DNA from: Apostichopus japonicus
Taxonomy: Eukaryota > Echinodermata > Holothuroidea > Aspidochirotida > Stichopodidae
Assembly: GCF_037975245.1 (NCBI RefSeq)
Contig: NC_092562.1
Span: forward strand, 12,910,001-12,974,000
DNA length: 64,000 bases
Reading direction: 5' to 3'
The notes below the pieces were generated by a model. It had not been told where the DNA came from. It searched no databases and was given only the letters and a program-made list of their open reading frames with translations. Within the stretch, counting starts at the first letter, position 1. Every line of letters starts with the position of its first letter. Both the position numbers and the translations under genes were made by a program. Positions 8,701 to 40,948 of the stretch are shown in pieces.

Positions 8701-11700
8701 TCCACTCAAAAGTACCTTCCTACGCCACTGCAATGTTTGTTGTCTAATTCTATGAAATTATCCTATATTATCCTATGTCATTAACCTATGTCATTATCCT
8801 ATGTCATTAACATCAGATGTAGCATTAACACAAATATTTTAGCCTTCATGCATGACCTGGTATTTATAACGTTGGAGTCTAGGCAGTGCATACAAGAATA
8901 TAATGTAAATGCTTCATCATTCAGTCAAAGTAGGCTACAGTAAATCTTAGCTGTCTTAATTTTCCCTCAAATGTCCAGCGACAAGCAAGCCTGCATGGCC
9001 ATCAACATCATTTATAACAGTGGTCCGCATACTCATAGGTCCACAACCGAGAATTTTCCTTGAAGACCGATTAGTGACCTACTAGACCTAAATCATCCTA
9101 ATCGATGCTTGGGATGTATACGTAGCGTGGACAATGGACTTTGTGTTATGCAAAATAACTTACAGCGTTATCAATCTTGATTGGCAAGCGCTGAAAACTG
9201 TCAATAGGTGAAAATTTTTGACATCTGCAAACTCCTACGTAGCCTATATGTTTAATAATAGTGCTCTCAATCAGCCATACGTCCTTTGTGACCAGTGAAC
9301 ACTGTGAGAGGACTTTACCTGCCAACGCTCACAGTTTTATGTATCGTCTTATGCTGGGATAACCTTTTAAGTCGATCTACGTTTAGATTTACAGAGTCTG
9401 GATTAAAAATTTTATATTAATAAAGGATGCAAGTCTTGTGGAATTGTCGTTAAGAAGTGTGATGACAACTTTTGACTTGCAGTTACTGTTTTTTACTGAT
9501 TTTTATGTGACTCTGGAATATTTTGCAAAATCGTCACGTTTGGGTACCATTCTCCTGGGTGTCTTTGCTGTAATCTTCCAGGTTGACACCTTTGGGAGGT
9601 TGCCATGTCTGAAAGAGACTCTAAAGTCTTTAACAAGTTACCTTCTCACCCTTCACTTTACAAAGCTATCCATTTGGTTTTGCCTCAAGCTATATATTCA
9701 ACTTACTCGACTTAAAAATTCAGACTCGCTCACTCAGATCTAACAGAGCTATTCTATAAAAGCCACCAAAACTTCAAACAAAGATGAACGGTGAGCGTTC
9801 TTTTCAATTAACGCCCCCCCCCCCAAAACTCTGGAACACTCTCCCAACCCACATTAGGAATGCCCCTACCATAGACAATATTAAAAGCTTCTTAATAAAA
9901 AACTCACTTATTCACGTGCTACCCTCATTGGACCTTATAAATTTTTTGATCCTTTTGGTGTATCTTTACGGTTTTGTTCTACTTTGCTGTATTTTTGTTC
10001 TCATTTTGTTTCATGTAAAGCGCATTGAGACTGTCGGTATAATGGGCTATATAACTCAGTATTATTATTATGATTATTATTAGTATTATTATCATGTCTT
10101 TTAACCTACAGAGTGTGCAGCAAACACTTACAGTGTTGGAGACACTTTAAACCTGACATGTACCTACACAGTACCTACCAACTCTCAGACCATTCCAGAC
10201 GAGGACATTGTTTGGTTTAAAGATGGCCGCTCACTGAATGTGACAGGTTCACACTATAATTCCCAAAATCGCCTCCTGCTTGCAGACAGTGGGAATTATT
10301 CCTGCCGACATGAAGACCGAGAACTGGTTTCTCTGCCTGTTTTAGTTGGAGGTGGGTAGTCAGTTCTAATTTATTACTTTTTGTCCAGTGGAAGAGCCAT
10401 CGCCATCCGGCGTCACTTCGAACCAGTCCGTCTGTGCACCTTGAGAATACCTTCGGACGGTTTTTCGATGACCGTACCGTATAACCACGGCATGACGATT
10501 GAGTAGTCATATGCTCTTTTCAAAGATTAAGCCATGCACGTCCAAGTGCAATCCTGAACATACAAGAGAACCTGCAGATTGCTCATTGATGGTTTATCAG
10601 ACAAAGTCTTAAACCATGGATAACTGTGGTAACACTAGAGCTAATACATGCAACAAAGCAGTAATTCTAGAGCTAATACTTGCAACAAAGCAGTAATTCT
10701 AGAGCTAATACATGCAACAAAGCGGTAATTCTAGAGCTAAAACATGCAACAAAGCGGTAATTCTAGAGCTAATACTTGCTTCAAAGCGGTAATTCTATGA
10801 TACATGCAACAAAGCGGTAATTCTAGAGCTAATACATGCAACAAAGCAGTAATTGTAGAGCTAATGCATGCAACAAGGCGGTAATTCTAGAGCTAATACA
10901 TGCTACAAAGCTAACTCTAGAGCTAAAACATGCAACAAAGCGGTAATTCTAGAGCTAATACTTGCTTCAAAGCGGTAATTCTATGATACATGCAACAAAG
11001 TGGTAATTCTAGAGCTAACACATGCAACAAAGCAGTAATTGTAGAGCTAATGCATGCAACAAGGCGGTAATTCTAGAGCTAGTACATGCAACAAAGCTAA
11101 CTCTAGAGCTAAAACATGCAACAAAGCGGTAATTCTAGAGCTAATACTTGCTTCAAAGTGGCAATACTAGAGCTAATACATGCAACAAGCGGTAATTCCA
11201 GCGCTAATAAATGCAACAAAGCTGTAATTCTAGAGCTAATACATGCAACAAAGCGTTAATTCGAGAGCTAATACAAGCAACAAAGTGGTAATTCTAGAGG
11301 TAATACATTCAACAAAGTGGTAATTTGAGAGCTTGTACATGCAACGAAGCGGTAATTCTAGAGCTAATACATGCAACAAATCTAGAGCTAATACATGCAA
11401 CCAACCGTCGACCCTACTTTTTCTTCTTATTATAATAGGTAGCACTGGCTGGTAAACTGGTGTTAGATATGAACATCTTTATTGCCCATAACAGCTTATA
11501 TGTACAAAACACCTCCCAAATGATTTTAAAATGCATAGCTGCTGGCAACAACAACAAAAATCTTGTTTTTTGGCTCATACTAAAAGTATTTTAGTACACA
11601 AAGAATACTGTGGTTCCTGTTGAGTCAAAAGAGACATTAATTGAGAGAAATTTGCTGTCAAAGTTAGCAGATTCTCACATACCAGAGACTTGATGCGTAA

Positions 11701-14700
11701 AAGCTCATGAACGTACAGGTCAATGTGTGACAAACTCAAAACAATAACAATGGACTTTCCACTTCCTTCTCGTAAGAAAGTGAACCATTTATTAACTTCA
11801 TACTTCCAATAAACATGCAGCTACAAGAAAAAGCAATGGTTGCTAGAATTGTACACTCATTAGTTAGAGGGGTAGAAATTCTTTCAATTAAAAGTAACTT
11901 ATGGTTAAAAAAACTGCCTAAATGTCTGGTCATATTTCGTAAGATCTATTATAGGCCAGTTCACATACTGTGCCGTATGATATCAAGGTCTTCCTTGTGT
12001 TGGGGTTGTGGTTGGGGTTGTTGTTAGACAGTCGTAGGGACAGAGGTCCTGCTAGAGACTGGCAACATCATCAGTTCACCAAATACTCTCTCAAAACTTC
12101 ATATCGTTTCTTTGATACAAGAGCCATGATCTCATTGGTCCATGCAGTTTTACTTTTCAGCATGCTGTTGGTACTCAAAGTTTACCTCACAGAGAAAGAT
12201 AAGGTACCTTAACTTAATCGAAAGCAAGCTTTTCCAAGTTTAAATATATATATATATATTTTTGCATATCATATCAGAAAACAATTTTTGTGCCAGGCTG
12301 ACTCGTGTCCATCTGGGATTTTTAATCTGTATTTCCTTTTACTTGTACCCAGAGAAACCGAGTAATGTTCCCGTGGCAACCTGCAGATGTAGAAGTAGAA
12401 AGCGGTTTAACTGCAGTTGGCATGGAACTACTGATTATAGACTGCCTACCATTCACCAAATGAAGTTGACTTATAAACATGACAACCTGGAGTAAGTGGC
12501 TCATTTGTTTGGTTTTTTGTACAGGTAATATTGTAATGAAAATCTTTGGATTTTGTTGACATGATATCAAGGGAACTAAATATCTGCTGACACTTTGAAT
12601 TAATTTTGTTAGTCGTTTGCTTGAGCATGCTGCTTTCCATGTTGTTGATACTTGGTCTTTTACAGGAGCAGTACGTTTAGTATCTGTCATGTTTCTTTGT
12701 GTAGATATATGAGTTCTTGAAACAATCAAGTAGAACACCGTCGACGACGTTGATTATTAACATGTCATATTTGATTGCGTAACATAGTCATGCTGTACAG
12801 GACAGATATCAGACGACATGTCCGAGATTACGTGTTGACAGATGGAGAGACAGGGTGAAACAAGGACGAGCAGACGGCATGCCCTAACTTATATATCAAT
12901 ATGCAAATGCACAGCTCAATGACAACCAGGTGCAGATTCTACAATGTAGTGTATCATTTGCACATGGACAAACTTATGAATATTCAATAACATTACAGTA
13001 TCATTCCCCTTAATCTTCAGATCTCACACTGGCAGTTTAGATAGGGGCGGACAATTACTATTGAAAGCCAAATTTCACTTTAACAACTAATACCATCCTA
13101 TAGTGCCCTACAAAACTAGAAGACAAGATAAAAAAAGTTGAGAAACAATATTTATAACCATTGACTTTATATTTGATTCTATTCTCTTCTATTTTATTCT
13201 TTTCTTTTTACAGGTACCAAACTTGTACGTTTGAAACCAAGACCAGAACCCATGTGTTTGACATGGGGAGTCTGACCAAAGGTTACACAGGGGTCGTCAC
13301 AACCATCAACTGCCTGGGTCATAGCCATTCAAACTATTTCGACGCTGACCCCCATAAGCCACCATGTGAATGTAAATATTTCATGTTTTTTTTATTCTCA
13401 GTTTTGGCAGTTTGCTTCATTTCTGCGAAACCGGCTTGAGTTTAATACGTGTGTAACATAGTGAATTCAAGCCAGTTCTACAGAATGAAAGTTTCGTTAT
13501 TAAATTCACATGATTCATCTGACCCCCGTGCAGCCGTTTTGACATTTGTTGAAGATCTGATCTGAATCCGTTGCTGCAAGCTATACTCCTGGATGGGTGG
13601 GTGTAGTGTTAAATGTAACATGATACAGTGCACAAGTTTTGCCGTTTGTATCTAATCAAAACATTAGAATGTGAATTTTTAGGGGGATGGGGGGGGGGAG
13701 AATCATTGATTGAGATCAAAGTCCCTTTGTTCCAGATTTACACAGAAATGAATCCGATACAAACAGTGTTCCAAATCAAAATATTAAGACATGGACTAAA
13801 AGCACAACAAAGGTCAATATAACCTGCTCTCTCTTCACTTTTACAAACAGTTTTATGAGACTCAGATTTTACAGTATGAAATCTTAGCATGTTTTGTTTA
13901 GTTGTATGAAGCGTATGAAATATTTGCAGATTGTGCGTTTGCAGTTTCCTTTTATTTGAAAGCTTGCGCATTATTATCTAACAAAATGATGGCACCTTTT
14001 GCATCTCAGTTTGGTGTGTACCAAGCTTGTAAATTGTGACTTAATGGGTGTGAAGACTTGCGCAAAAAGAAATGTCTAATGCTGGTAATCTGACCTAGTT
14101 TCGAATGAGGTGTAACAGAAGTGTTAGACACCACCATGAATCCCTGAAAATATACACACAGCTTGCTACAGTCGGCAAATATGACTCTAGTGTACAGTCA
14201 GTCGATACAGCTGCAGTCAATACCCACAGCACAGTGTACAGACAATACAGCGATGGACATCTCAGGTCCAGCTATAGATAACAAGGTATCACGTTTCATT
14301 ACTGTCTGCATTTGTAGCGACAAGCAGAAAACTTCACTTGCAAGCAACGGAAAGTTAACTTTTTCAGAGCGTGGCATGCGGTTTGGGGCGAGTCTTCAAT
14401 GCCATTAAATTGGTCTAAGGCTCTGTCATTCTAATGTCCTTTCCTGTGATAGATTTTGTGCAAAAAGTTAAGGTATAGACTTAAAAGACCATTCTGCTCG
14501 AGAGAAAGCCCTCTCTTTGATGTTTTTTGTTTGTTTTTTTCTTCTATGACTTTGAGGTGTTCTAATGGATCTAACTTCAGATCTGATAGGTCTTATTTGT
14601 GCTACATTAGCACATTTAAATATGAGGTCAACTGCAATACACTACATAGTCGAAGAATCTGAATAAATGTAGTTTCTTATATCCATATTTCTTATCTTTT

Positions 14701-17700
14701 TATTTTGGCAGTGACAAGTCTTCCCCCCAGAAATGTCAAAGTAGCTGCACTTAATAGCAGCATATCACTTGTGAATGTTACCTTTGACCTACCAGAAGAG
14801 TGGACGGCACGTGAACTCATAAGTACAGATAAATTTATTTTCTGGTTCACCCAGTCCATGATCGCATCTGCAGACTGGGATGATCGGAACAGAAAGGTAA
14901 CGATATTCTCAAACTCTCACCGGCAGCTTTTCAAATCATGTTGTAATTTTCTTGTTTTGTAAACTAACTTTATGTTACCTGAAGAGAGCAAAGAAAGAAA
15001 TTTTTTTTTAGCTGTGGAGTGTTATTCGGTGACCTTACTGTCACAAGTCCTGCGCTTTACCAACCCAGCTATTCGGTAACTCTAATAATCAGTTCCAATA
15101 CCTCGACGATGGCCATTTCTTTGCTTACGGGGTTACCCCTGCAGAAGGCAGAGTAACTTATCATAACGTGTATCCAGGGAGCACACCACCATTTGATTCG
15201 TTTGATAAAACCCCGACAAAATGGCAGGGAATTACAGTCTTTGTGGCTTTGATCTTTTTCTATGTATAGAGACATAAGAGTAAATCAAGAACAGAAAACT
15301 GACTGGGGTTTTAAGAGCAGAGAAAAATTGTGTTGTTCTTTTCTAAATTGGTTTGTCATCGACCATTTTTGCTTGTTCTTTTTTATTTATGTATCTGATA
15401 TTATGTAATGTGATAAATAATGCCTCTCACATGAGATGTCTTGGAGTGATCTGTGGAAAATGAGGGCTGGGGAGGGGGAGGGGAGGGGGCCATCATCACT
15501 TTACAAATCTTTACGACAAAGCTCAAATGGTGTATCGATTTGGTGATGACTCCCTCAAGTTCATGCCTGCTCTTTGTATCGCAATGAAATATTAATATCG
15601 AAACGAAACGAAAAGTTGAGACAAGAAAACTCCAGAATCAATCGATTAATTTATCACTCAGTCATTTATTTTCGATCGGCTGAAACTAGCATGCAGTGAT
15701 TGCTTCATCAATTCGACAGTGTTTGATATGTGGACGATGCCCTCTTAGCTTTGTTAATATCGGGTGCCAAAAGATGTCGATTCCTCATCAGAGAGGAGAA
15801 AAATTCAAAAACGCAGAATTGCCTCATGTTGATAATGCAACCCAAGTCTGTTAGCTTAAAAAAGCAGAGGTAAAAAAGATGATATAGGCAGTCATGATGG
15901 TCACGTAATTTTTTTTTCCATAATTTTATATGAATGTAGACGAAATGTGTGACAAAACTTGAATATCTTTTATCGTCATTCCAGGTCGTGAAACAGCAGG
16001 AAGTGAGCAGGTCAAAGGTCAGTCTATTGATTTTTTTTTAATATCACTCACAGTCTGGTTCTTTCCTCTGATATAAACAACAGCATTTCTCCTAAGGAAA
16101 AAAAATCAAGCCAAATCTTACATATCTATTTGTTGACTAAACCAGCAACTTTTCAAAGCTTTAGTAATTTAGTAATTACTATCAGTGACGATACTTGGAA
16201 GTAATCATCATATCAATGTGTAGTTTATATGACAATGATTTATGTGTGCTCACAACCATGAAGAATAAATCACACTTGTAAGTTAATCCCCACCGATCTC
16301 CCCCTGTTAACCCACCCCACCAGGCCCCCTTTGCTTAAGTGTATCATTTAAATGTTGTATTTCATAATTATAAATGATACAGCAATTAAGTTAGGGATGC
16401 CTCCTTAGGAGAAAACTCCATACAATCCCATACCATCAGGCCCCCTTTGCTCAAGTGTATCATTTAAATGTTTTATTTCATAAATATATATGATACAGCA
16501 ATTAAGTAAGGGATTCCTCCTTAGGAGAAAACTCCATAAAATCCCATACCATCAGGCCCCCTTTGCTCAAGTGTATCATTAAATGTTGTATTTCATAAAT
16601 ATAAATGATACAGCAATTAAGTTAGGGATTCCTCCTTAGGAGAAAACTCCATAAAATCCCATACCATCAGGCCCCCTTTGCTCAAGTGTATCATTTAAAT
16701 GTTTTATTTCATAAATATAAATGATACAGCAATTAAGTTAGGGATTCCTCCTTAGGAGAAAACTCCATAAAATCCCATACCATCAGGCCCCCTTTGCTCA
16801 AGTGTATCATTTAAATGTTTTATTTCATAAATATAAATGATACAGCAATTAAGTTAGGGATTCCTCCTTAGGAGAAAACTCCATAAAATCCCATACCATC
16901 AGGCCCCCTTTGCTCAAGTGTATCATTTAAATGTTTTATTTCATAAATATAAATGATACAGCAATTAAGTTAGGGATTCCTCCTTAGGAGAAAACTCCAT
17001 AAAAATCCTATCACATCAGGCCCCCTTTGCTCAAGTGTATCATTTAATGGTGTATTTTATAAATATAAATGATACAGCAATTCAGTTAGGGAATGCATCT
17101 AGGAGAAAAAACCATATAATCATTGTTATAGATGTTGAATTATTGCCGTACCCAATGTAAATCAATTTTTTCCTTGTCTGCCTCCTCTGCTCTAAACACC
17201 ATGGAAGGCCCTGTGGGTTGTTGTGCACTGACATGGCTGTTAGAGATGTAAACAAAGTAATATGCATTCATAACTGAAAGTAGTTAATCGTGTCTCATAG
17301 CAAACTTGAACTCGATGCAACAGTCGACTGCAGTATTTACGAGCGTTTGCTATCGACGGTGGACGAGCGTTACGGCGAACGCTTCGCAGACACCCACTGC
17401 GCAGTTTTCAATTCGGCCAGGTACAACGAGAAAGCATGATTCTAGCGCAGATATTTCACCCTGATTTTGGTTTTTGAATTCATAAATGGAGACGATTTCT
17501 CTTCCTCAGGGAGGTAATGAAACTGGAATGTTTTATTCTTTAAGCGTCTCAGACGAAGCTTACTCCATGGTCTGTGTTCGAGTCGCTCTAAAAACTGTAG
17601 GAGAGTCAGAATTTTCAGAAGCCGGTTGTAGACGTACAAGGATGGCTAGTAAGTGTACATATTGGTTTTGTACTGGTCTAATGTATATGTGACATTTGGG

Positions 17701-20700
17701 GATATTTGGTGGAGTCGTGCATTAATTTTTTTCATTATTTCCCTCATTAATTGGTAATCCCACCTCTGCCACCACATTTGTCGCTACCAATGATAGGGCA
17801 AGCATTTGCTGGCTAGGACCTACCTTTAATTATCAACAGAAAAGACCACATCAGGATGGGCAAACACTAGGGCGTGACAGCCTAGGCGGCGGTCCCCAAA
17901 AATATGTCTGTTTCAGAAATATGTATTTATGTTAAAAATTGGGTTTGCAACTTTCCATTTTCAGGACCGTCATCTGGCCCTAAGAATTTCACATTTATTA
18001 ATTCTACACAAGACAGCCAAGATCCTCAGCGAAGAAATGTACTGCTCAGTTGGGACGTATGTATGAGCTGTTTGTTCTTGTTTGTTTTAACATTTGAATT
18101 TTGCGGGAGTGTAGGGGTGGGGTGGGGAAGGGGGCGGGGTAGTATGGGAGCGAGAGTACTGTCACGAGGAATGTCAGCGTTGTGGGATGGGAAGTTCTTT
18201 CTTTGGGACTACATGGTATTAAAGCATTGTTTCAAATTAATTAAAGAGAGTATGTGTATGGCAACAGCATTAGCATTTTTCTGTTGTGGCTCTCTGAAAC
18301 ATTTTCCCTGATGTACGATGGAGAGTGGGGTCACCCCCCTCTCCCCTCCCCTTCTCCCTGTACCTCCTCCATTTGTACAAGCTTTTCCAGATCTGGATAA
18401 CAGAGGCCAGACAAAATTGCGGCCTCAGATCAGTCAAGTCTGACTGTGTATGATTTATGCGCTGTATTGTTTTAACTTGTAACACATGTTTTTTTAATTT
18501 CTATCAATAATTTCAAAGGGTAAAATATTAGAGGTAGGTAGTCTGCTTTTGGGGCAAATTTCAGTCATTTTTAGAGATGCGATTAATTTTGTCGTCATGA
18601 CAGTCACACTCGTATCTGTACCTTGATATTATTTTTAAATTTTTGGTCTGGAGACTTCATAAATTGTTAATGAGCACTTGCATGGGATGAGGAGGCCTTG
18701 GTAGTGTTATGTTTAACCTCCCTATCAAGACCAACTGCGGTTAGTTCTCTGCCCAACTGAACTTATACAAAGACACAGAGGGGTAGAAGTTAAAAAAAAG
18801 GAATATTTAGAAGTCGAAAGCAAATATCAAGGTTAACGTTTGCGCAAGAATACAGTCTATGAACTTGTGGCAGGTAGCTATAATTAAATGTGGCGTAAAG
18901 CTCACGTATGGCATGTACGTTGTGTCAGCAGTACGGAGGGATAATGTCAAAAGATTCTTTTACCGACTTTTGCATGTATTTCACAGCCCCTGGCTCCAAA
19001 AGAAGCTAACGGTATCATCACTGGTTATAGATTGACCGTTTGGAGAACTTCTAATTCCACAAATCTATGGGAATATCACATTCCACCGAACGACACAACT
19101 ACATTAGTCAAAGGTACGTCGGTGGTGGGATTGCCTAATTATCAGCATGGAGAGTATTACAATAGATGGAGAACCTTTTGAGAAATCAGGAGCCTATTGA
19201 AGAAACAAACAGAAACACGTAGAAACTAAAGAATTTAAAATGCTGTACAGAAAGATTTTAGACACAGGAAACAGAGCCATCATGCAAAGTGTGACTATAT
19301 ATATATATATATATATATAAATATATTTATATATGTAACACATACAGAGGATTTGAAGATTACTTTGCAAAACACCAAGAATATTGTGAGAAAGATGCCC
19401 TAATATTTTTCAATATTTTGGGATTCATAGCAGTCTTCACATGGATTAATCATTTTTGAATAACATGAGAATTTGGGAAGAGTTGCTGGAAAATATGTGG
19501 GCACATCATAACAAAAAACATGAGAATGTTTTGGGAAAGTGGAATGCAGGATCAACTATAAGAGAAGGAATGCAAAGGATAGATAGGGTATACGTGTGTG
19601 TGATCGAGCGTTTAACTTTCCTCCGTTTTGGCCTGTTGTAAGACTTGCCATCATAAAATACATTGTAACATGAAATGTCATACTAACAGAAATGAAAAAC
19701 TTTGATCTGTGAAACTATGTTGGTGCAGATTGTGAAATCACAAGTGGACAATCAGGGAAAGCCGGTTATTTTCTTCTTAGCAGCTCAGGGAAAGGAAATA
19801 TTCTTGGACATTAAAAAGCTTGGGAAATCTGAAATCATCATGACTGTCTGGTCAGGCGTCATAAACCCGACCAAGTGGATTCTTTTGTCCTAATGGGGTG
19901 TAATTTTGTTGAGGTGTTTTTATTTTAGCACACAAGTGTAACAGCACACGGGGTATACATTGTCTGACAGATTGTGATATTGGGACACAAAAGATGAGAC
20001 GGTTTTAGAGGTATTAATGAAATCTACAGATGGAATATATTTGTATTGTGTGCATGTATGCTTTGGTACCTACCCAAATCTTTTCTTTCTCCATATGCTT
20101 TTTTTTTTTACCAAGTTCTCTCCTTTTCTTTTTGTCTTTCGTTCTTCTAGGTATCTTATCATACCAGGAATACAAAGCCCAACTTTTTGCGATCAATGCT
20201 TTCGGCGAATCCGATCCGAGTAACGTGACCATCACTAAAGTCGTCACACCTAATAAGGGTAAGATTAACTTCCTTTTTCCTTCTTTCCCAATTTTACACT
20301 CAACTTCTTTAGATCCTGCTCTCACTTCACTCACTCCCTACCTCCCCTGATAGCAGATTTCCAGAGACTTCCTTTCTTTTTCATTTTGTGTTTGTTGTAA
20401 TCACATTAATTCAGGGAGATGCGGACAGAACCATCAACATGATAATCTTAACTTTGATAGAGTTATGCATGTGATGACCAATACCCCCGAAACAGCCAAG
20501 AGAAACCTTCATTCTGTTTCCTGAGATATTTTGTTTATAAAAATGAATTTTTTTTTTTTTTTTTTTCACTCTTTTTTTTTCTCTCTTTTTTTCGAAGTCT
20601 GCAGCAAATTTTGTGCCACAATTGTAATGAAATTTGTAATATTACCAAAGCTATAATCAATGTCAGTATTAACAAAAATGCTGTAATTTGAAAAAAAAAA

Positions 20701-23700
20701 AAAAAAAATTGGGGGGTGGGGGTTCATGAAAACATGGAACAAAAGAAATATGGCAGAGTATGTAAGATATTTCACCTCCCTTGTGGCACAATGGCACATC
20801 CCTCATTGATAATATGACCATAATCCAATGATATGGCTTGTTAGAACTAGAACATCTCCCTTATAGAAGCTGTTGTGTAGAGAGAATTTTTAACCCCTCT
20901 CCCCCCAAAAAAAGAGGTATCTATCACTTAAAGGTAAAGAGCATGCATGATGGTTGGGTTTGCTTCTCCTTTCGACATTAAGGGATGTTTTTTTACGTAA
21001 TATTGATAGTTGTTAAACTCTCATCTGTGCTGTGTTGTTCAGACATTGGTGCAGCAATGTACTAGCAATTCTTCAATTATTTCCACTTTGCCTTGCAGCA
21101 CCTTTAATCATCATTTGCACATTAGTGGTACTCACGATCATCTGTTGCATCATGCTAACGATATGTTTGTACTCCAAGATTAAGAAAAGGGTACTCCCGA
21201 AAGTTCCCGAACCAGTGTACTACAACGATCCCTTCGTAAGTACCAATTGGGTGTGTTCTAGTCAGTTCTCACAAATCTAATCTGTGCCATTGTTTTTGTT
21301 TTTTTAAATGTGCTGTCGTACATTACCCCGCTGGAGACACGGGTGGCCCTCACAAATCTATCACAAAAACCTGTGATCATTTTGGTCACTTTAAAGAATG
21401 GAGAGTATTACACAAAATGGTAGCTAGAAAGAAAATAGTTTGAAAAAAATGGATTAAAATTTTCTAGTTTGAACAGCCATAAAGTCTTTCACAAGTTTAT
21501 TTCAGATAAGTGTGGTTAGTTTTATCACCTTCAGTTCTTTTTCTCTTGACAAAGAACACCACAAAATAGCTTGGGAGAGGAGGATTATAGTGGGAAATAC
21601 TGCTGAGGTGACCACCCCTCCCACCCCCCATACTCTCCAGCAATTGGAGGGGTGGATAAAGCAATAAACCAATAACAATCAATGCTACATTGCAATTGAC
21701 ACTTTTACACCATATGCCAATATCAATTCAAAAATATCTTCAAACTCCTCAAAGAAGAAAATGTCCCTGTCATAACAATACTCTCTCAGCTGCTCCCCCC
21801 CCCCCCAATCCATCAATCTCTAACCACTGTGCAGGATGACCTTAGAAGGCAGAGTTATAATGCTGATATTATACAATGCAATAAGACATGATATGTATAA
21901 TATGATACCTTACATACGGTCTCCAGGGATGTGCTCAGGAATATTTGAGTGCCGAGCAGATTGTGCGGTAGTGTGATCCACACCCTGGGAGAGGGATCTC
22001 ATGGGTGGGGTACCCCCTCCCCACTGGACAAATTTTGCACATGAAGTATGAAGTTAGTATAGATTGCCTGCTTTTTAAGATATTCATTTTTAATGTATGC
22101 TAAATGTCAGCTTTATCAAAAGATGACATTGACTGTATTGACCAGACATACTAGATGGATTATAGTAAGATACCATGAAGAAAAAAATGTTCTGTTTTCT
22201 TCATAACTAACATCCTCACCGGTGCGGTGCGATATCCAGCACGTTCTTTGGCTCAAGACAGATTTGTAACTCACTGCAAAATATGTTTAAATAATGTTTA
22301 TCTGAGGCCATAAAATGCCTCTTATTTTCCAAAGAAACCTCCTCTTTGATTGCTTTTGATGAGTTGATGAGTCTTAGAACAGGTACAATAGTTCAAGACC
22401 TTTTAGTTGGTGAAACTCAGATGGTTGAAAAAAGTGATTTTCAAAATATTTAAAGTGGTAGAGAAATACAACATGGATTTGGTACCAGTGTTTTCAATCA
22501 CAGTCTACAATGTGGCAAAATTAATAAGGTACCTACCATTCATCCTTGAGAAATATATGCATGATCGGTTTTTACAAAAGAGACTTTTACCAAGATGCTA
22601 AAATCTCTGGACTATGTACATTTTTTTCTTCTCAATTTCTTTCACATTTTCAGATGACACAGTTGCAGTGCACACATTCCATAGAACCCGAAGTCTTTGA
22701 TCCATTGAATTCTCCACCCGTCGAAACGTCCACCCAGATCGCAAACGGCGATGTGGTTACGTCGGAGCCTGCGGTTAGGGTCTGGAGCGAGGCGAACGGC
22801 ACCGGTTACTCATACAGACGATTCGAGAGCAGTAACGGCTCGTCGATACATCACGGCAGCCAAGAATTAACGGGTCTGCAGGCCGTGGGAACACACGACA
22901 TACAGCACAATACTTACACGTCTCTACCGTCCAGGTGTGATGACTTAACAGGAACGGCAACATATACCTCCAATACCGACGGCAATACCGTTAGAGTAAC
23001 TACACCACAACTGAGTACGAACGAAGAATACCAGTCCGATACAACAGAGGACTATGCCCGAGTCGCCTTGCTTGCGGATCACCCCGATGGTGCTTCTGCC
23101 AGCGGAGGTCAGGAATATGACATGTTCGCCGCCAGAAAACTGGAGGATTTTCCAAGTGGAGAGATGTATGACAAAGAACCAATAGATAGAGGGAGGTCTA
23201 GCAGGCAGAAAGCTGGTAATGGATTAGATGGAGGTGCTACTTCCGAGAGTTTCCCCACACCGGGTTTCGTTGATCCACCTGCGGCCCAATCTTCCCAGGC
23301 TCGTTGGAAGGCTGCTGGTGGTGCTAACGTCTCCAATGATTTAGGCATCGTTAGCCCAGATAGAACACATAGAGAACCTTATCTTCCTAACATAATAGAC
23401 ACCGATTGTGTCGAACCTTCAATGGTTACAGGCTTCCATGATCCATATATTTCCAATCAGAGATCGCTGGTGCAGGACTCTAAAGGTAACGTTTCTTCCT
23501 CCTCCGGAAGTGATCCATATTTGTTGAAGGTTGGTAGTACTCCCGGATCAGACTTCAACCGCACATGTGATCCCTACGTCTCGAATGGTAACGATGCTCC
23601 TGCACGGAAACAGAATCCGGAACGGCCAGGTGATGCAAATGTTTGTGACGGATCAAACTTGAGAGGAAGCAAGGATCTGATGACCATGGCTAGTAAACCA

Positions 23701-25281
23701 TATATATCTAAAGAAAAGTGCATTCCAGGATCAAAAGGAGAGAATGTGGATAGAACCTGCCATTCATACAATTCAAATGGTAGAGATTCGACCGGTTGGA
23801 AGCCAAGCCCTCGTTCACAGACTGATCCATGTGTTCCTGACCGGTCAGACTCGACCGGAGGCAGTCTTGATCCGTACCTTCCTCACATGTTAGCCTCTGA
23901 TACCGATCCCTTGATCCCTGATCCGAAGAAGGGGAAGAAGGACACAACTTTTGATCCATATATCTCCCATTCTGCCTCAGCTGCTGGTCAGAACAGTTCA
24001 CCGTCATTTAATGTATCAGAAGAGACGTTTATCTCTGATCCATATGTAACACAAGCTTCCCTTGAGTCGAAGATTAAAAATCTTGATGTGCCAAACGAGC
24101 TCCCATCGAATGAAGGGTGGCATGGAAGTACCACACGTGCACCAGCAATGCCAGCAAAACCTTCAATTTTTGAAGACATGACTGAAGCTCCTGTCGATCC
24201 ATATGTTGCTCACGCCAAAGCTGTTCGTGGATCTAACGACACGGCTACCACTGGGAGTAAACCTTCTACCAGTCATAGAACTGTTGACAAATCTGATGGA
24301 TCTACTGTTTTACAACAGGAAAATGATCCATACACATCTCATGTTTCTCTTATAGCTGGATCAGAGTTCGGAAACAAACCCGTATCTGTTCTGCACACGA
24401 GGGATGATCCTTACATTTCCCATGATGCTCTGTCAACTGGATCAGAGTTCAGAAACAAACCCGTATCTGTTCTGCACCCGAGGGATGATCCTTACATATC
24501 CCATGATGCTCTTTCAACTGGATCAGTGTTTAAAAATGAACCTAAAGCTCCTCTGGATCAAAACCATGATCCTTACATATCCCATGATGCTTTGTCAACT
24601 GGATCAGAGTTCGGAAACAAACCCGTACCTGTTCTGCACCCGAGGGATGATCCTTACATATCCCATGATGCTCTGTCAGCTGGGTTAAACAAACCTAGCA
24701 CTCCCTTGCAGCAGAGAAATGATCCATATGTATCCCATGATGCTCTTTTATCTGGATCAGTGATTAAAAATGAACCTAAAGCTCATCTGGATCAAAACCA
24801 TGATCCTTACATATCCCATGATGCTCTGTCAGCTGGACCAGAGATTGGAAACAAACCTAAGACTCTTCTCCACCAGAGGAATGATTCGACGGTATCCCAT
24901 GATGCTCTCTCAGCTGCATCAGACCTTGGACACGAACCAAAGGATCCGTTGCAGCAGCGAAACGATCCCTACGTATCATGTGATGTTCTTTCTGCTGGAT
25001 TAGAGTTTCAAAGCAAACTTAAACCTCCTCTGCATGAGAATGATGATCCGTATGTGTGCCATGATGTTCTTAAAGCTGGATCCGAATTTGAAAGCAAACC
25101 TGAATCTTGTCTGCAGCAGAAAGATGATCCCTATGTATCCCACGATGCTCTTTTAACTGGATCAGAGTTTGAAAACAAACGTAGAACTCCTTTACAGCCG
25201 GAACATGATCCTTACGTATCCCATGATGCCATTTCTGCTGGATCAGGTGGTCAGACCAAAAACCAAAAAACTCCTCTGTAG
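5002..25281 (+). CDS. gp130-like class I cytokine receptor (13 exons)
   Basis: Joined exons: 5002-5107, 7932-7979, 10112-10351, 12353-12491, 13214-13365, 14712-14896, 15985-16017, 17510-17648, 17965-18056, 18987-19113, 20151-20258, 21099-21235, 22654-25281. They give 4134 nt, about 1377 residues, with no internal stop. Order: signal peptide (1 to about 25), Ig domain (52-131), cytokine-binding FN3 pair (132-228 and 229-347), one FN3 (348-456), membrane helix (about 459-481), Box1 (484-495), tail (503-1377). Class I receptors bind a four-helix cytokine and signal through JAK kinases held at Box1. The intron phases across the binding module (1-2-1-0-1) match the pattern known for this class. 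The order Ig, binding module, FN3 resembles gp130 but has one membrane-proximal FN3 where gp130 has three. An acceptor just before the ATG (tag at 4982-4984) implies a 5' UTR exon upstream. AATAAA at 26789 or 27532 could end the transcript. Family call is strong; exact exon borders are inferred. Confidence 0.85.
5133..5370 (+). repeat. Two-copy tandem duplication in receptor intron 1
   Basis: Two units of about 120 bp share TTCAAATG...TACATA, GTGATGTAAGTATATTC and AATCCTCCTGCT. They start just after the exon 1 donor and look like an old local duplication. Confidence 0.65.
5660..5790 (+). repeat. (GAT)n microsatellite
   Basis: Long imperfect GAT/ATG repeat in receptor intron 1, with GATCAT variants at its 3' end. 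The open frame across it is a repeat artefact. Confidence 0.9.
7932..7979 (+). CDS. Receptor exon 2: short linker before the Ig domain
   Basis: A 48-nt phase 1-1 exon flanked by a pyrimidine-rich acceptor (TCCTCCTCTGTATAG) and donor GTAATA. It adds residues 36-51, including Cys39 and an N-glycosylation site (NLT, 41-43). Because it is symmetric it could be skipped without a frame change. It is supported by frame and splice signals only. Confidence 0.5.
8072..8305 (+). repeat. Direct repeat of about 90 bp
   Basis: Two copies (about 8072-8158 and 8218-8305) share GAATGTTTGGTTGGCAT-like sequence, then GACAATAT and ACTGTATC. They are separated by a purine-rich tract. Confidence 0.65.
8362..8730 (+). 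mobile_element. hAT-type MITE, family A, copy 1
   Basis: 369 bp flanked by an exact 8-bp duplication CAATGTTT (8354-8361 and 8731-8738). Ends are inverted: CAAGGGCGTAGGAA and TTCCTACGCCACTG. The interior has G- and C-rich foldback segments. It lies in receptor intron 2. A close copy is at 45424. Confidence 0.88.
9710..10090 (+). mobile_element. LINE 3' end ending next to the Ig exon
   Basis: Reverse transcriptase C-terminal remnant (PPKLWNTLPTHIRNAPTI, then FLIKNSLIH), followed by a GCGC...TATATAA-like tail and a TTATTA repeat. Same family as the copy at 58.6-59.1 kb. The tail repeat runs to within about 25 bp of the exon 3 acceptor. Confidence 0.8.
10112..10351 (+). CDS. Receptor exon 3: Ig-like domain
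   Basis: A 240-nt phase 1-1 exon for residues 52-131. Hallmarks of an Ig fold: GDTLNLTC with Cys68 on strand B, DIVWFKDG with Trp86 on strand C, and DSGNYSC with Cys116 on strand F. N-glycosylation sites include NLT, NVT and NYS. A single exon with phase 1 at both ends is typical of extracellular Ig modules. The LINE tail upstream ends only about 25 bp before this acceptor. Confidence 0.88.
10503..10640 (+). pseudogene. 18S rRNA 5'-end fragment (diverged)
   Basis: Reads in order through the start of 18S rRNA: GTAGTCATATGCT, CAAAGATTAAGCCATGCA, CTCATT, ATGGTTTAT, ATAACTGTGGTAA, then TAGAGCTAATACATGC. It has many substitutions and a missing segment, so it is not functional. It sits in receptor intron 3 and runs into the tandem array that follows. 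Confidence 0.85.
10640..11402 (+). repeat. Satellite built from an 18S rRNA segment
   Basis: About 24 units of about 32 bp with consensus TAATTCTAGAGCTAATACAT followed by GCAACAAAGCGG. The unit equals a conserved stretch near position 100 of 18S rRNA. A higher-order period of about 186 bp (six units) is visible, with blocks starting near 10742, 10928 and 11114. Confidence 0.9.
12353..12491 (+). CDS. Receptor exon 4: first half of cytokine-binding FN3 domain
   Basis: Phase 1 to 2, residues 132-178. It opens with a linker EKPSNVPVATC and holds the class I signature CRC...FNCSW (Cys142, Cys144, Cys152, Trp154). These cysteines form the disulphides of the N-terminal binding domain in this family. 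The donor GTAAGT is strong. Confidence 0.88.
13214..13365 (+). CDS. Receptor exon 5: second half of cytokine-binding FN3 domain
   Basis: Phase 2 to 1, residues 178-228. Contains the third conserved cysteine region (YQTCTF) and the closing strands VVTTINCLGHS, then the hinge FDADPHKPP. A second donor 6 nt downstream (GTAAAT at 13372) keeps the frame and would add Cys-Glu, so the end could be 13371. Confidence 0.8.
14041..14408 (+). mobile_element. TTAA-flanked MITE, copy 2
   Basis: 368 bp bounded by TTAA (14041-14044, 14405-14408). Ends are TGGGTGTGAAGACTTG and GAGTCTTCAATGCCA, inverted. Aligns over its whole length with the copy at 1166. It lies in receptor intron 5. Confidence 0.8.
14712..14896 (+). 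CDS. Receptor exon 6: first half of second binding FN3 domain
   Basis: Phase 1 to 0, residues 229-290. It begins LTSLPPRNVKV, a normal opening for the membrane-proximal domain of the cytokine-binding module, and runs through NVTFDLPEEW. The donor is AAG|GTAACG. The acceptor is weak in pyrimidines next to the AG (TATTTTGGCAG) but the frame is clear. Confidence 0.8.
15985..16017 (+). CDS. Receptor exon 7: candidate 33-nt microexon
   Basis: Eleven residues (VVKQQEVSRSK) between acceptor ATTCCAG and donor GTCAGT, phase 0-0. It bridges the two halves of the second binding FN3 domain. Skipping it keeps the frame, so it may be alternative. The evidence is splice signals and frame only, so confidence is moderate. 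Confidence 0.5.
16321..17118 (+). repeat. 116-bp intronic satellite, seven units
   Basis: Units begin with CAGGCCCCCTTTGCTCAAG at 16321, 16437, 16553, 16668, 16784, 16900 and 17017. Each holds a 10-bp inverted repeat GTATCATTTA / TAAATGATAC around an AT-rich loop. The first and last units are more diverged. It lies in receptor intron 7. Confidence 0.9.
17510..17648 (+). CDS. Receptor exon 8: second half of second binding FN3 domain
   Basis: Phase 0 to 1, residues 302-347. Encodes YSMVCVRVAL followed by GESEFSEAG. The position corresponds to the WSxWS box of class I receptors, but both tryptophans are absent (ESEFS, 333-337). The donor GTAAGT is strong. Confidence 0.8.
17965..18056 (+). CDS. 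Receptor exon 9: start of third FN3 domain
   Basis: Phase 1 to 0, residues 348-378. It begins RPSSGPKNF and ends NVLLSWD, the A and B strands of an FN3 domain. Acceptor TTCCATTTTCAG, donor GTATGT. Confidence 0.8.
18987..19113 (+). CDS. Receptor exon 10: middle of third FN3 domain
   Basis: Phase 0 to 1, residues 379-420. PLAPKEANGIITGYRLTV is a textbook FN3 B-C loop and C strand; EANG before the C strand also resembles the fourth gp130 domain. Donor GTACGT. Confidence 0.85.
19290..19335 (+). repeat. (TA)n microsatellite
   Basis: Short AT dinucleotide run in receptor intron 10. Little else is recognisable in that intron. Confidence 0.85.
20151..20258 (+). CDS. Receptor exon 11: end of third FN3 domain
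   Basis: Phase 1-1, residues 421-456. YKAQLFAINAFGESDPS is the F strand and F-G loop of an FN3 domain. Acceptor GTTCTTCTAG, donor GTAAGA. No further FN3 exon was found before the membrane exon. Confidence 0.85.
21099..21235 (+). CDS. Receptor exon 12: transmembrane helix and Box1
   Basis: Phase 1 to 0, residues 457-502. A run of about 23 hydrophobic residues (LIIICTLVVLTIICC and onward to 480) is the membrane helix. It is followed by a basic stop-transfer and IKKRVLPKVPEP (484-495). This fits the Box1 pattern of class I receptors, a hydrophobic residue then PxxPxP, where JAK kinases dock. Tyr497 and Tyr498 follow. Donor GTAAGT. Confidence 0.88.
22654..25281 (+). CDS. Receptor exon 13: cytoplasmic tail with DPY array
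   Basis: Last exon, phase 0 start, residues 503-1377. It has low predicted order: rich in Ser, Asp, Pro and Asn. It holds 18 DPY motifs, mostly DPY[IV]SH, first scattered and then tandem from 24322. One motif reads YVTQ (Tyr966), the YxxQ type that recruits STAT3 in vertebrates. Other isolated tyrosines lie in EEYQSD, EDYARV, EYDMF and EMYDKE. The exon begins exactly with ATG. The stop is TAG at 25279-25281; an in-frame 26-codon continuation holding another repeat unit follows it. Confidence 0.85.
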   Translation: MTQLQCTHSIEPEVFDPLNSPPVETSTQIANGDVVTSEPAVRVWSEANGTGYSYRRFESSNGSSIHHGSQELTGLQAVGTHDIQHNTYTSLPSRCDDLTGTATYTSNTDGNTVRVTTPQLSTNEEYQSDTTEDYARVALLADHPDGASASGGQEYDMFAARKLEDFPSGEMYDKEPIDRGRSSRQKAGNGLDGGATSESFPTPGFVDPPAAQSSQARWKAAGGANVSNDLGIVSPDRTHREPYLPNIIDTDCVEPSMVTGFHDPYISNQRSLVQDSKGNVSSSSGSDPYLLKVGSTPGSDFNRTCDPYVSNGNDAPARKQNPERPGDANVCDGSNLRGSKDLMTMASKPYISKEKCIPGSKGENVDRTCHSYNSNGRDSTGWKPSPRSQTDPCVPDRSDSTGGSLDPYLPHMLASDTDPLIPDPKKGKKDTTFDPYISHSASAAGQNSSPSFNVSEETFISDPYVTQASLESKIKNLDVPNELPSNEGWHGSTTRAPAMPAKPSIFEDMTEAPVDPYVAHAKAVRGSNDTATTGSKPSTSHRTVDKSDGSTVLQQENDPYTSHVSLIAGSEFGNKPVSVLHTRDDPYISHDALSTGSEFRNKPVSVLHPRDDPYISHDALSTGSVFKNEPKAPLDQNHDPYISHDALSTGSEFGNKPVPVLHPRDDPYISHDALSAGLNKPSTPLQQRNDPYVSHDALLSGSVIKNEPKAHLDQNHDPYISHDALSAGPEIGNKPKTLLHQRNDSTVSHDALSAASDLGHEPKDPLQQRNDPYVSCDVLSAGLEFQSKLKPPLHENDDPYVCHDVLKAGSEFESKPESCLQQKDDPYVSHDALLTGSEFENKRRTPLQPEHDPYVSHDAISAGSGGQTKNQKTPL

Positions 25282-25326
25282 CAGAAGAATGACCCCTACA
25301 GATCCCATGATGCTCTATCAGCTGGA
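24322..25326 (+). repeat. 81-bp coding tandem array in the receptor tail
   Basis: Twelve translated units of about 27 residues (81 bp, one about 72 bp), plus a thirteenth after the stop. The core is DPY[IV]SHDALS[TA]GSEF. One unit has lost its tyrosine (DSTVSH) and others vary at the His (YVSC, YVCH). Several units are close to identical at the DNA level, so the array probably expands and contracts. Since 81 divides by three, length changes keep the frame. Confidence 0.9.
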
Positions 25327-28300
25327 TCAAAGTTTTGGGTAAAAAAGTTTAAGAAAGCCTAGCACTTATTAGTGCCCATTTTAACCTCAAACCTGACCTT
25401 GAATTGCTCAGATACTTACCTAGTTTCACTGCTGGATAGTGTAACAGAAGAAGGCGTTTTGGTCCACAACCATTTAGGCCCACATACCAGGATATTTCAT
25501 GAGGACCTACCAGAACCCCCTCCTCCCCCCCCCCCCCACCAACCATTCAGATTCATAGCTCAGAATTCATGACAGGTGATTTGGATTGTGGACTCAATGT
25601 TACAAAAATATAGCTAAATCGATCTCCTTGGGCAGCTCCAAAAACTGTAGGTGTATTTGTTGTCGTCTGGAGTAAGACTTGCGACCGACCAAAGACCATT
25701 TGAAACCCACTTTGGGTCTCCCTCCCCTCCCCACCCTACCCCTCTGCTCCCATAGTTTGTGGACTACAAGACCAGAGAAAAACATACATTCATCCATCGG
25801 TAACCTCAGTATTAAATAAGGTAAATTCATCTTGCCATTCCACTGAAATTTTTCACATATTTTTATTTTTGACTTTTACAGACAATTTGGTGAAGAACTT
25901 TGACGTTCACGGTACATTTGCATATATAATTTATTACAGTTGATTTTAAAAGTTGTGTATTTTATGAATAGAAGTGATTTACTGCCACTAAAGCAAGGGT
26001 GCTAGAACGGGTCCAGCAGCTGAGACAGGTGCAGGGCCAATAGTTAATTAAGTTGGTCTTAGTTTTTTTTCAGTTTTTTTAAAGTTTCCTGCCATCGAAC
26101 ACCACACCCCCCATCCAAGGTTTTGCGAGGTTGTGCAAATAGCTAATTTCAATTTTATGATTGGGGTTAAATGGGGGTGTACATCTAACCCCCCCCCCCC
26201 CCATTCCCTGGACAGTAATGGATCATTTGGCTCTTTATACTGTACAGTACATCATAACCATTTCCATGTACTCCATTGTGTGCTGCTATCTCCATTAACC
26301 CTGTTTCCTTTCATAATCATATTTGTTAATATCTTCCTCAACGTTTGGCTAGGAGTATTATCTTACTCAGTAGCTAATTGATTTGTACATTGTCTCCATC
26401 GCAGTCATTATAGTTTATTCTGCCTTTTCTAAGACACATTTCATAACTGATAAAAAAGCGTCATCGACTACAGTTAAATCGTGTTTTTCATGATGACATA
26501 CGCTATTGTGATGTTCTCGTGAAATTGCGCTAACACTATGCGACAGTTGTTAAAAGCGATCACCATGCATGTTAACACTACGGACGTACCTGTGAGACAC
26601 AATGTCGTCCAACTGTAGTCTGTTATTCTGTTAATTATACAATATCACAGAAATCTATAAGGTCGAAAGACTCTTCCGTCCATAATGTTTTTGGCGGTGA
26701 AATTAAACGATTTCTGTCAGTACTTCGCACAACTTGTATAGTGAGCATTCTGCCTGGAAAGGTACGGTGGCCAAGAAGGGATTTTAGGAATAAAAACTTG
26801 GAATAGTTTGCTATAGCCCATACCTCACACTCTTTAAATGTTTCAGTTTTCGTTACCGTGTATTTTGATTTTGTACATCTTTTTTTCCCGCCCAAACACA
26901 AGAGGCTATGATAAATCCGTGTAGGCTACTATCAGATAGTTTGTACCATACAAACCATCATTGTCACTTTTTTTTCGGAGATGACCAATATTTATCGCAC
27001 CAAACGTTTTTCCTCCGGCCTTTTTTATCAAGTGCTTTCCCTTGTTCTTTTGTTTTATGATATATGTAGTTTATTATTTTTTTTTGGGGGGGGGGTCGGG
27101 TAATTAGTTTCATTTTCTACCATCATTATTTGATATAATTCCTTTTCATTTTTCCTTCTGTTAATATAACTAATGAATAGTCTGTACCATTTACATCTTT
27201 CATAAACTTTCCTTCCAGTTTTTGCTCAAAACTATCTTATTTTTACCTCTTTTTACGGTTGTTTCTTTCCTCCTCTCCCTATTTATCAGGAAAATTGTTT
27301 CTATTTTAAACTTCGTGCTAATTTCAATTTGTGAATAATGTTGTTCTGACCGAGTGGCAGTATACCTCTTATTTTGCATTCATGGTTAGAGGTCAGTATG
27401 TTGTCCTGTGATTTTGACTGCGATTGCGCAGAAGTAAGTCATTTGTGACGTACAAAGGCCTATAAATTTCCATTGTTATGATGTGTTGATTCATCTCTTT
27501 ATGTGTAAATCTATACACAATCTCAAGTGTCAATAAATAATTTGAAATTTCAGTGGTATCACAAAACAAAATGAATTGAAGTTAAATCACTCAATGAAAA
27601 CAAAACAAACATAAACAAAATCATATTTTAAAAAAAATCGTAATTCCTATAATACGGTCGACATGAGTAAGTAGCAAGTACCAAGTGACCTGGGTTGGAG
27701 GTATTGTGTGTGTTGAACAAGAATAACTGTTGAACGAATCTCTAAAAAATAGTTGATCATAATCTGCTCATCACATCGAGTATGATTTTCTTGATATTGT
27801 TTGCAAGGATTATTCATTATTATGACATTAAACTTGTACTAATTCGATGGTTAGCTGAATGATCCAGCAATGCTATATAACTGCATCAGTTTTTCCACTG
27901 GTTGGAAAAGTGCCGGGTGGCAGATACACACTTCTGCTCCTCTTTATTTGAATGTGGAGGATGCCTCCCCCTCACCCAACTCCACTGCCTTTGACCAAGA
28001 GCATGACCGTACCCTAAGACTTAATGAGCGTGCTATCAAACGTTCATTACTACGGTATATCGTGTGCACAACGACGACGCTCTATTATTAACCTTTGTTT
28101 AAAATCGTTCAGGAAGTTTATGTTTATTTTTCATCATTCATGCATGGTACTATTTTGGTGCATCAAAGTTTACAGATTGTGTTTTCATAAACTATATTAT
28201 TTCCTTGTCTTGGTTCCGCCTGTAGATTAACTCTTTAAAAAAGAACTCAATTGCCTATATATCAGCTCAATAAAGTATTAATTATACATGTATAACAGAC

Positions 28301-28640
28301 TGAATTATCCATGTTGCATTATTGCTTTGACAAACAGATGAAAACTGCCTATATATTACAATAAAATATAACTATAGTTTTTCTAACGAATTATAATTTA
28401 GTTTAATAATTAATAGTCTATATCATATTGTGTCTTTGTTTTCCTTTGAAATCTCACAATACATTATAAATATTATAATTGGATAGATTTGTAATAGTTG
28501 GTTGGACAATAGATAAAAGTGAAAACTTTATACAGTCAGTGTATTTGTATGTTGATTATTTTTGTATCGTGTTATTTTTGCCATCGGTCCAACAGTTCAC
28601 CTAACCTTCAAAAGAATGTTCATACAGTTATGAATACAAC

Positions 28641-29475
28641 CATGGGCGGCGATCCGTACTTCAGAGTGGGGGGATATGACCTTGTTGACTATCGAAGCGT
28701 AGCGCCACCATGAGTTGGCGCGAAGCGTACAAGAAAATTTTGGGATTTACAAACCCTCTATATGGCCGGAAACGGCACTTCCCGAGGTTTCCAAGCGGCA
28801 TATACCCAACTTTAAAATAGGGATATCATGTCCGAAATATCTTATAATCAGGATCCAAAATACTTTTTTTTTTTAATATCGGGTGTTATTTTGGGAAAAT
28901 TGCCCCTGTCAATCTTGTTTCAGGCACTACGTTAGAATGTTCGAGAGCTCTTTTCTATTATGCCATGAAGAAAATGGCCTCATGCAGGCTATTATAGGCC
29001 TATACACATACACAATTACACATAGTTACATTCCTAGGTACCGATTGCTAGGGCATCCAGGTGAAACGTGTATTAAGCATTACCCTGGTAACATGAGATT
29101 CTCAGCGGTTCGAGGGAACATACATGTACGTGTGTAGGCCTACTATAGGGCCTATATGAATACTATGAGGGTGCATATATGTACTATATACGGTGGGCGC
29201 AATAATACATTTTGTTGTTATAGGGCCAATGAAGCCTACAGTCAACTATTCTTGCTTTATAAAGACGGTTTATTTGAAAATATCGCACTGCGTTTATGGT
29301 AGGCGAGAAATGAAGCTAAAAAAGAGCCGTACATTCACGATGATGCATATAAAGGCATGAAAATATTCTTATCCCTGGCATTTGGTGGGGGGGGGGATAT
29401 GGTGTGTTACATCCCCTCCACCCATTTTCATGGGGGGATATATCCCCCCCTTCCCCCCCAGGATCGCCGCCCATG
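28641..29475 (+). mobile_element. Non-autonomous hAT-type element with perfect 15-bp ends
   Basis: 835 bp with perfect inverted ends CATGGGCGGCGATCC / GGATCGCCGCCCATG and an 8-bp target duplication AATACAAC (28633-28640, 29476-29483). It has G-rich and C-rich subterminal tracts. An internal module (AGCGCCACC to GTTGGCGCGAAGCGTACA) recurs at 54735 and 55065. No transposase frame. Confidence 0.88.
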
Positions 29476-29899
29476 AATACAACTGATGATAAATAAATAT
29501 ATCATTTATGCGTCACATACGCTAAATTATATTGGTTCAAGGAACATCCACTCATCCGTTCCGACTCACCCCCGACCCTCCCCATCTCATTTTGATTGCT
29601 TTAAAATTAGGCTACATCTGTTTTAACATTTGCGTGTAATTTCTTCTTCGTTTTCGTTTATCGAATGAAATTTGACATTTAAAATTGCATGATCAGATTT
29701 CTGTCATAGCATTAAAGCAAAGTTATACATTTTCGGATTTTGTTGTGTACGATCCAAATCTAAATGCAACCCCGGAACAATATCCGATTCCGTTTCATAG
29801 TCAGGTGGGCTATGTTTTGACAATGGTGTGGAACCATTATGATCCTCAGTTCAATTGGCGCGAACTGAATAGGGAGTTGACTTTAAAGATCTGCTTTAT

Positions 29900-40883: not shown

Positions 40884-40948
40884 AACAGGGTAAAAAATTG
40901 AGAGGCATGATGAGAGAATAATCGCAGACTTCACAGAACAAATGCTTC
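40884..40948 (+). other. 5' UTR part of the GT31 coding exon
   Basis: Follows a strong pyrimidine tract and CAG acceptor. Contains the uORF ATG AGA GAA TAA and a second upstream ATG near 40941 that overlaps the main frame. No upstream UTR exon was identified with confidence. Confidence 0.55.

Follow-up and report, generated by a model that had tools for sequence, protein, structure and literature searches.

Cytokine receptors normally bear a handful of docking tyrosines. EpoR, IL2RB (whose STAT5-docking site we take to be DAYLSL) and other STAT5-docking receptors have few single sites, and we know of no tandem array among them. Many copies of one tyrosine motif are found in p130Cas, a cytosolic adaptor with YDxP/YxxP sites. 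gp130 (IL6ST), which has three FN3 domains and which we take to belong to receptor group 2, uses several tail tyrosines as docking sites. According to an excerpt of PMC8980962 it uses a few YxxQ sites for STAT3. An excerpt of PMC7444064 gives pYxxL as the STAT5 consensus in receptor group 1 and pYxxQ (STAT3) in group 2, and lists as shorter patterns Y[VLTFIC] for STAT5 (there called promiscuous), YxxQ for STAT3, YxxP for STAT1, YxxF for STAT6, Y[AFILVWY]x[AFILVWY] for SOCS2/3 and YxxPhi for internalisation. The receptor RTKB2 of the choanoflagellate Monosiga brevicollis has six RM2 repeats in its tail; in isolation these repeats lack a fixed fold, and once phosphorylated they bind an SH2 domain (PMC3584944, in excerpt). 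A 2026 survey (PMC13203501, in excerpt) groups the STATs of invertebrates with STAT5/6 and reports IL6R-like receptors in echinoderms, with Strongylocentrotus purpuratus as a named case.

The window analysed here, a stretch of 64,000 nucleotides from the sea cucumber Apostichopus japonicus (C2:12910001-12974000), holds the gene of a receptor (R1) for which no paper was found among the literature matches listed. In R1 a docking-type tyrosine motif, DPY, has undergone a real and lineage-specific amplification within a gp130-like receptor. R1 shares with gp130 the order Ig, CHR, FN3, TM and box 1, with a single FN3 domain in place of three; gp130 is also its best sequence match, and several tail tyrosines are predicted docking sites in R1 as well. 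It differs from gp130 in its 18 DPY motifs, most of them within a tandem array and with His, Asn, Lys, Gln or Cys at +3. Its DPY sites share their -2 Asp and hydrophobic +1 residue with EpoR (SEHAQDTYLVLDK; PMC3078918, in excerpt) and with DAYLSL, a string in the excerpt of PMC7444064 that we take to be the IL2RB site.

The initial annotation had likened the tail to the substrate domain of p130Cas. The layout is indeed similar, many copies of one tyrosine motif; the specific likeness is not supported, and p130Cas-type YxxP repeats were rejected, none of the 29 tail tyrosines having Pro at +3. RTKB2 resembles R1 in the repeated tyrosine unit of its tail and in the acidic residues before the tyrosine; unlike R1 it has tyrosine kinase activity of its own, a longer repeat unit of about 80 residues and a Src kinase as demonstrated partner. 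RTKB2 is the nearer precedent of the two.

Structure and kinship of the receptor gene

Ten exons with AG/GT borders join in one frame without an inner stop, giving the order Ig-CHR-FN3-TM-box 1-tail:

10112..10351, plus strand: exon, Ig domain (PF13895, E 4.4e-8; splice sites; joined frame)
12353..12491, plus strand: exon, first half of CHR D1, EKPSNVPVATCRC..NCSW (gp130 alignment; EpoR_lig-bind below cut-off; joined frame)
13214..13365, plus strand: exon, second half of CHR D1 (gp130 alignment; joined frame)
14712..14896, plus strand: exon, first half of CHR D2 (gp130 alignment; joined frame)
17510..17648, plus strand: exon, second half of CHR D2 (ESEFSE at the WSXWS position; gp130 alignment; joined frame)
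17965..18056, plus strand: exon, FN3 part 1 (joined frame; in the spliced protein, fn3 matching begins near the exon end)
18987..19113, plus strand: exon, FN3 part 2 (PF00041 in the spliced protein, E 1.8e-9; joined frame)
20151..20258, plus strand: exon, FN3 part 3 (PF00041 in the spliced protein, E 1.8e-9; joined frame)
21099..21235, plus strand: exon, TM helix and box 1, KKRVLPKVPEP (aligned to gp130 TM/box 1; joined frame)
22654..25281, plus strand: last exon, cytoplasmic tail (875 aa, single open frame ending in TAG; acceptor in phase)

A simple filter found no first exon or signal peptide exon upstream of 10112 in the window. When the spliced protein from ectodomain to box 1 was compared with PDB sequences, gp130 came first (whole-sequence E 4.4e-11), with aligned stretches from Ig to FN3 (Ig-D1-D2-FN3, E 5.8e-7) and from FN3 to box 1 (E 0.04); at box 1, KKRVLPKVPEP of R1 lies over KKHIWPNVPDP of gp130. 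The Pfam families above cut-off in the spliced protein are fn3 (1.8e-9) and Ig_2 (1.3e-6), with EpoR_lig-bind below it. The CHR of two FN3-like domains is present by the gp130 alignment, and D1 carries C-x9-CSW, the N-terminal Cys pair. The strict WSXWS is missing from D2, where the position reads ESEFSE; GHR, a class I cytokine receptor, has YGEFS there. A single TM helix is followed by box 1, whose VLPKVPEP fits the JAK2 box 1 pattern in the excerpt of PMC7444064; the exon encoding both has NDPF as its last residues. We place R1 among the gp130-like members of the class I cytokine receptors, with the reservation that it has no strict WSXWS; its binding of ligand and JAK is putative. That the tail belongs to a receptor, as the initial annotation had it, is borne out by the best match to gp130 and by box 1, which make it a receptor of cytokine type.

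Two introns contain tandem arrays of their own. The intron after the Ig exon has a 32-bp unit in 24 copies (window 10628-11380; unit GGTAATTCTAGAGCTAATACATGC, which may correspond to a conserved segment of 18S rRNA), and that inside D2 a 116-bp unit in 7 copies with 95% matches (window 16317-17121). Elsewhere in the window, 40922-42040 is a 373-codon frame of beta-1,3-galactosyltransferase type (PF01762, E 1.9e-33). Outside it, besides the mitochondrial contig C35, COX1 fragments were seen on the 31-kb contig C29 (14745-16086 and 30842-31219) and may have been copied into the nucleus or left over from assembly. The mitochondrial contig uses the echinoderm code and, judged by eye, has nad1 and nad2 on the cox1 strand and nad6 opposite, in agreement with the ground plan of sea urchins and sea cucumbers.

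DPY motifs and the tandem array

Frame 22528-25281 is the sole stop-to-stop frame of at least 150 codons overlapping window 18000-30000. Close to the start of the tail exon is a box 2-like EVFDPL. The tail gives no Pfam family at E 1 and is probably disordered; its 29 tyrosines comprise 18 in DPY and 11 others. The initial annotation had reported eighteen DPY motifs, most reading DPY[IV]SH. The count is confirmed (18 triplets in frame 22528-25281, the first at 23440 and the last at 25207); "most" overstates the second part, the exact DPY[IV]SH occurring in just nine, that is half. Residue shuffling of the 875-residue tail gave a mean of 0.24 DPY and a maximum of 3 in 2000 shuffles. Ahead of the array alone there are 7 against 0.13 in shuffles, a number reached by 0 of 20000. 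The features within and beyond the tail are:

23440..24324, plus strand: seven dispersed DPY, at 23440, 23512, 23569, 23869, 23953, 24037 and 24196
24325..25281, plus strand: tandem array of 12 in-frame units, core DPYxSHDALSxG; DPY in 11 of 12; the last unit is cut by the stop
24883..24963, plus strand: array unit without tyrosine, DSTVSHDALSAAS, with DST in place of DPY
25282..25362, plus strand: 13th unit, in frame past the TAG stop, with a 19th DPY and a second TAG at its end

The 81-bp tandem array described earlier is real: it is covered by TRF rows 24323-24683 and 24687-25329, and its 12 in-frame units from 24325 are spaced by 81 bp ten times and by 72 bp once. The unit motif, D-P-Y-[I/V]-x-x-D-x-L-x-x-G, was repeatedly duplicated, lengthening the R1 tail. 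Asp at +4, Leu at +6 and Gly at +9 are each present in 11 of the 12 units, and the Tyr is never Phe or Trp. The TAG stop at 25279-25281 sits where several sibling units carry a Gln codon, and an in-frame unit continues beyond it (window 25279-25362); a recent truncation of the array at its 3′ side, possibly polymorphic, may explain this. Upstream, all seven dispersed copies read DPY[ILV]. Only some of them have flanks that resemble the array unit, a partial likeness that would be expected of older, decayed units, and KPY, HSY, DPC and EPY in the same region look like decayed relatives of DPY.

Genome-wide, the DNA pattern GAYCCNTAYRTNTCNCAY (Met at +1 also allowed) gave 15 matches, nine in the R1 tail and six elsewhere, while its reversed control pattern gave 11. 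The six fall in frames no longer than 70 codons and looked like chance matches; two of them are a near-identical duplicated stretch, and that on C1 reads DPYMSH within a short repetitive frame. The array was found nowhere else in the genome by this pattern search. A genome search with the R1 tail (E 0.01) returned only itself; it did not return the paralogue R2 (see below), so distant relatives may be missed, and such searches with the R1 and R2 tails score first-look candidates only.

A disordered tail may also lengthen by slippage alone, and the array could be a coding minisatellite whose extra copies have little function. Among 25 tripeptide windows DPY, kept in 11 of 12 units, ranks first, with runners-up at 9 (the variable +1 column lowers the score of any window that spans it). 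All four Pro codons and both Tyr codons are used in the array. The last unit has one codon extra, and the portion that this shifts was left out of the dN/dS and neutral tests. dN/dS was 0.10 at the DPY codons, 0.71 in columns 4-12, 0.45 in columns 1-12 and 0.65 in the spacer (columns 13-27); columns 4-12 thus evolve no slower than the spacer, and clear constraint is seen at DPY alone. In a neutral star-tree model, where the divergence of every unit is set by its third positions, DPY survives in a mean of 2.99 of 12 units and none of 20000 runs reaches 11; a neutral NJ tree from which the DPY codons were omitted gives a mean of 2.90, with one run of 20000 reaching 11. With NJ branches shortened to x0.7 and x0.5, 59 and 336 of 20000 runs reach 11, which weakens this support. 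DPY itself is constrained, because it is kept in 11 of 12 units where about 3 would be neutral and because its dN/dS is low; the strength of the constraint depends on the tree.

The fast spacer, the equally fast columns 4-12, the unit without tyrosine, the unit past the stop codon and the other minisatellites in introns of this gene all suit a minisatellite, but DPY retention exceeds the neutral models, the Pro and Tyr codons vary silently, and the motif is kept in the dispersed copies and in one paralogue. We consider an array whose extra copies have little function rather improbable. The initial annotation had looked to orthologues for conservation of the tyrosines; within the one genome analysed, the motif is kept above neutral expectation in the array and is common to one of two paralogues.

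Paralogous receptors

A genome search with the R1 ectodomain found, beyond its own exons, weak matches including C2:12897175 (E 0.009) and C2:18871368-18872106 (E 0.28 and 0.98), the latter leading to a paralogue, R2. The part of R2 seen spans C2:18868307-18875943 on the minus strand, 5.9 Mb from R1. Like R1 it has FN3, TM and box 1 (KLFPDVPEP), 41% identical over this region (E 1.8e-31), followed by a box 2-like element and a tail, here of 498 residues, with a tyrosine repeat including DCYVTEDSLRLG. Unlike R1 its repeat is 237 bp long, in 2.8 copies, and has three kinds of tyrosine site; it contains FDCYVTEDSLRLG, CDAYTREADL and NGYVPNK. With filtering and composition correction switched off, the remaining R2 tail aligns weakly to R1 (E 2.8e-4). 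The R1 array profile, P and Y columns excluded, was used to score all 12-mers in the R2 tail, and the best three were DCYITEDSLMPG, DCYVTEDSLRLG and DSYVAEERLRLG, all of them tyrosine sites; being copies of a single R2 repeat, they amount to one shared site. Asp at +4, Leu at +6 and Gly at +9 of the array unit recur in R2. The best-matching sites read DCY and DSY, and one separate R2 site is DPYLVE. A genome search with the R2 tail (E 10) returned itself alone.

A wider search for paralogues, with R2 as query, gave 42 matches; most belong to an array of FN3 exons on C23 that was taken as unrelated. The stretch C23:15071571-15081459 has 20 similar-scoring FN3 matches about 510 bp apart and is probably a separate FN3-repeat gene.

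The paralogue nearest the window is R3, a third gp130-like receptor (C2:12885567-12897435, minus strand, about 12.6 kb upstream of the window). Its tyrosine-rich tail frame of 260 codons has no array, and its set of tyrosine sites is not above chance against the array profile (p 0.12). The TM/box 1 exon of R3 was not located by motif search; the box 2-like element is common to R1, R2 and R3 (EVFDPL, EIFDEL and EIFDDL).

Candidate partners of the DPY sites

The STAT5 pattern Y[VLTFIC] is loose; all 18 DPY fit it, against 4 of the 11 other tail tyrosines, and for the seven DPY ahead of the array against those 11 the Fisher p is 0.013. At +3 the DPY sites have His in 13 cases, Asn in two, and Lys, Gln and Cys in one each. 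None of the 18 has the +3 Leu of the pYxxL consensus, and none fits YxxP, YxxF or the SOCS2/3 pattern. STAT3-type YxxQ, as in gp130, was rejected with one fit in 18, and a SOCS reading was dropped with +3 never in AFILVWY. Also dropped was a YxxPhi or NPxY sorting array (YxxPhi in 0 of 18 DPY; NPxY absent from the tail).

One STAT, on C4, was reached by two genome searches, with STAT5B and STAT3 SH2 fragments; the searches went exon by exon, and a further STAT could escape them. Its SH2 exons have STAT5A as best PDB match (E 1.4e-27), above STAT6 and STAT3, and by this likeness we class the sole STAT found as STAT5-type. An exon beside them reads DEGYVPASIK, like the R2 sites NGYVPNK and HGYVPNK, and presumably holds the STAT activation tyrosine. 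A STAT_bind family search had no match in the genome, and none in control genomes either, so that it is uninformative. The SH2 fragments also gave weak matches on C9 (E 4.93) and on C6 (E 1.39), the latter in an SH2 frame that on visual inspection did not look like a STAT. The human JAK2 kinase domain as query gave 12 genome matches, the best 40% identical, and no firm JAK.

The most likely reading, to which we give about an even chance, is that the DPY array is an amplified STAT5-type docking array, with putative phosphorylation and binding. A JAK bound at box 1 would phosphorylate each DPY site, and the phosphorylated sites would dock the SH2 domain of a STAT5-type STAT; many equal sites could then give a higher local STAT loading per activated receptor, or faster re-loading. 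DPY phosphorylation, STAT binding and signal amplification are in this scheme predictions from motif and gene content. The reading draws on the gene anatomy and gp130 kinship, the box 1 of JAK2 form, the retention of DPY, the recurrence of the extended motif in R2, the lack of YxxPhi and the likeness of DEGYVPASIK to the R2 sites. It is also supported by the fit of all DPY to Y[VLTFIC] together with the STAT5-type STAT. For these last two reasons the unrecognised SH2 partner proposed in the initial annotation is not needed, though one may exist; its other suggestion, a PTB partner, is unlikely in the classical form, there being no NPxY in the tail.

Several points weaken the STAT5-type reading. 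Y[VLTFIC] is promiscuous, +3 is mostly His and never Leu, and the group to which we assign gp130 uses YxxQ. The shared motif counts for less because the R2 sites are one repeat and R3 shows no significant sharing. Phosphorylation by a JAK is made less secure by the distant best match of the JAK2 query. According to an excerpt of PMC3078918, JAK2 favours acidic residues before the tyrosine and hydrophobic ones after it, a general preference that speaks for the reading; its special preference for -1 Glu or Asp speaks against it, the DPY sites having Pro at -1 and their Asp at -2. A further point against the reading is an excerpt of PMC8980962, by which STAT5 activation through JAK contact is possible without receptor tyrosines.

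The residues shared with R2 reach +9, which weakens a STAT reading in general and suits another SH2 protein, whether adaptor, SHP2-type phosphatase or SOCS, docking at the DPY sites in place of STAT. The conservation of +4 Asp, +6 Leu and +9 Gly, in the array and again in R2, extends beyond the stated STAT5 needs, and several partners often share cytokine receptor tyrosines (PMC7444064, in excerpt). Such a partner is nevertheless unlikely in our estimate: no DPY fits the SOCS2/3 pattern, and Crk-type YxxP is absent.

Endocytic proteins carry DPF/DPW arrays, and DP followed by an aromatic residue resembles these, as does the NDPF at the end of the box 1 exon. An array of unphosphorylated trafficking signals is very improbable, however, given a Tyr that is never replaced by Phe or Trp in 12 units, the lack of YxxPhi and NPxY noted above, and best R2 sites that read DCY and DSY, although the separate R2 site does read DPYLVE.

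If the STAT5-type docking reading is followed, two gp130-like receptors may have independently amplified a shared DxY[VI]xxDxL, with the number of STAT docking sites as an evolving trait, a form of gain control by tail length; we put this forward as a possible but doubtful extension. To our knowledge, gain control by tail length through many-fold STAT5-type loading is known in no other cytokine receptor. Natural variants rarely allow one to ask whether the number of docking tyrosines sets the strength or speed of a signal, and R1 with eighteen sites, R2 with a different repeat and R3 without a repeat form a natural dose series. Signalling of the IL-6-receptor type would have, in this echinoderm, a tail architecture of its own and, if the reading is borne out, an unusual means of tuning an immune-type signal.
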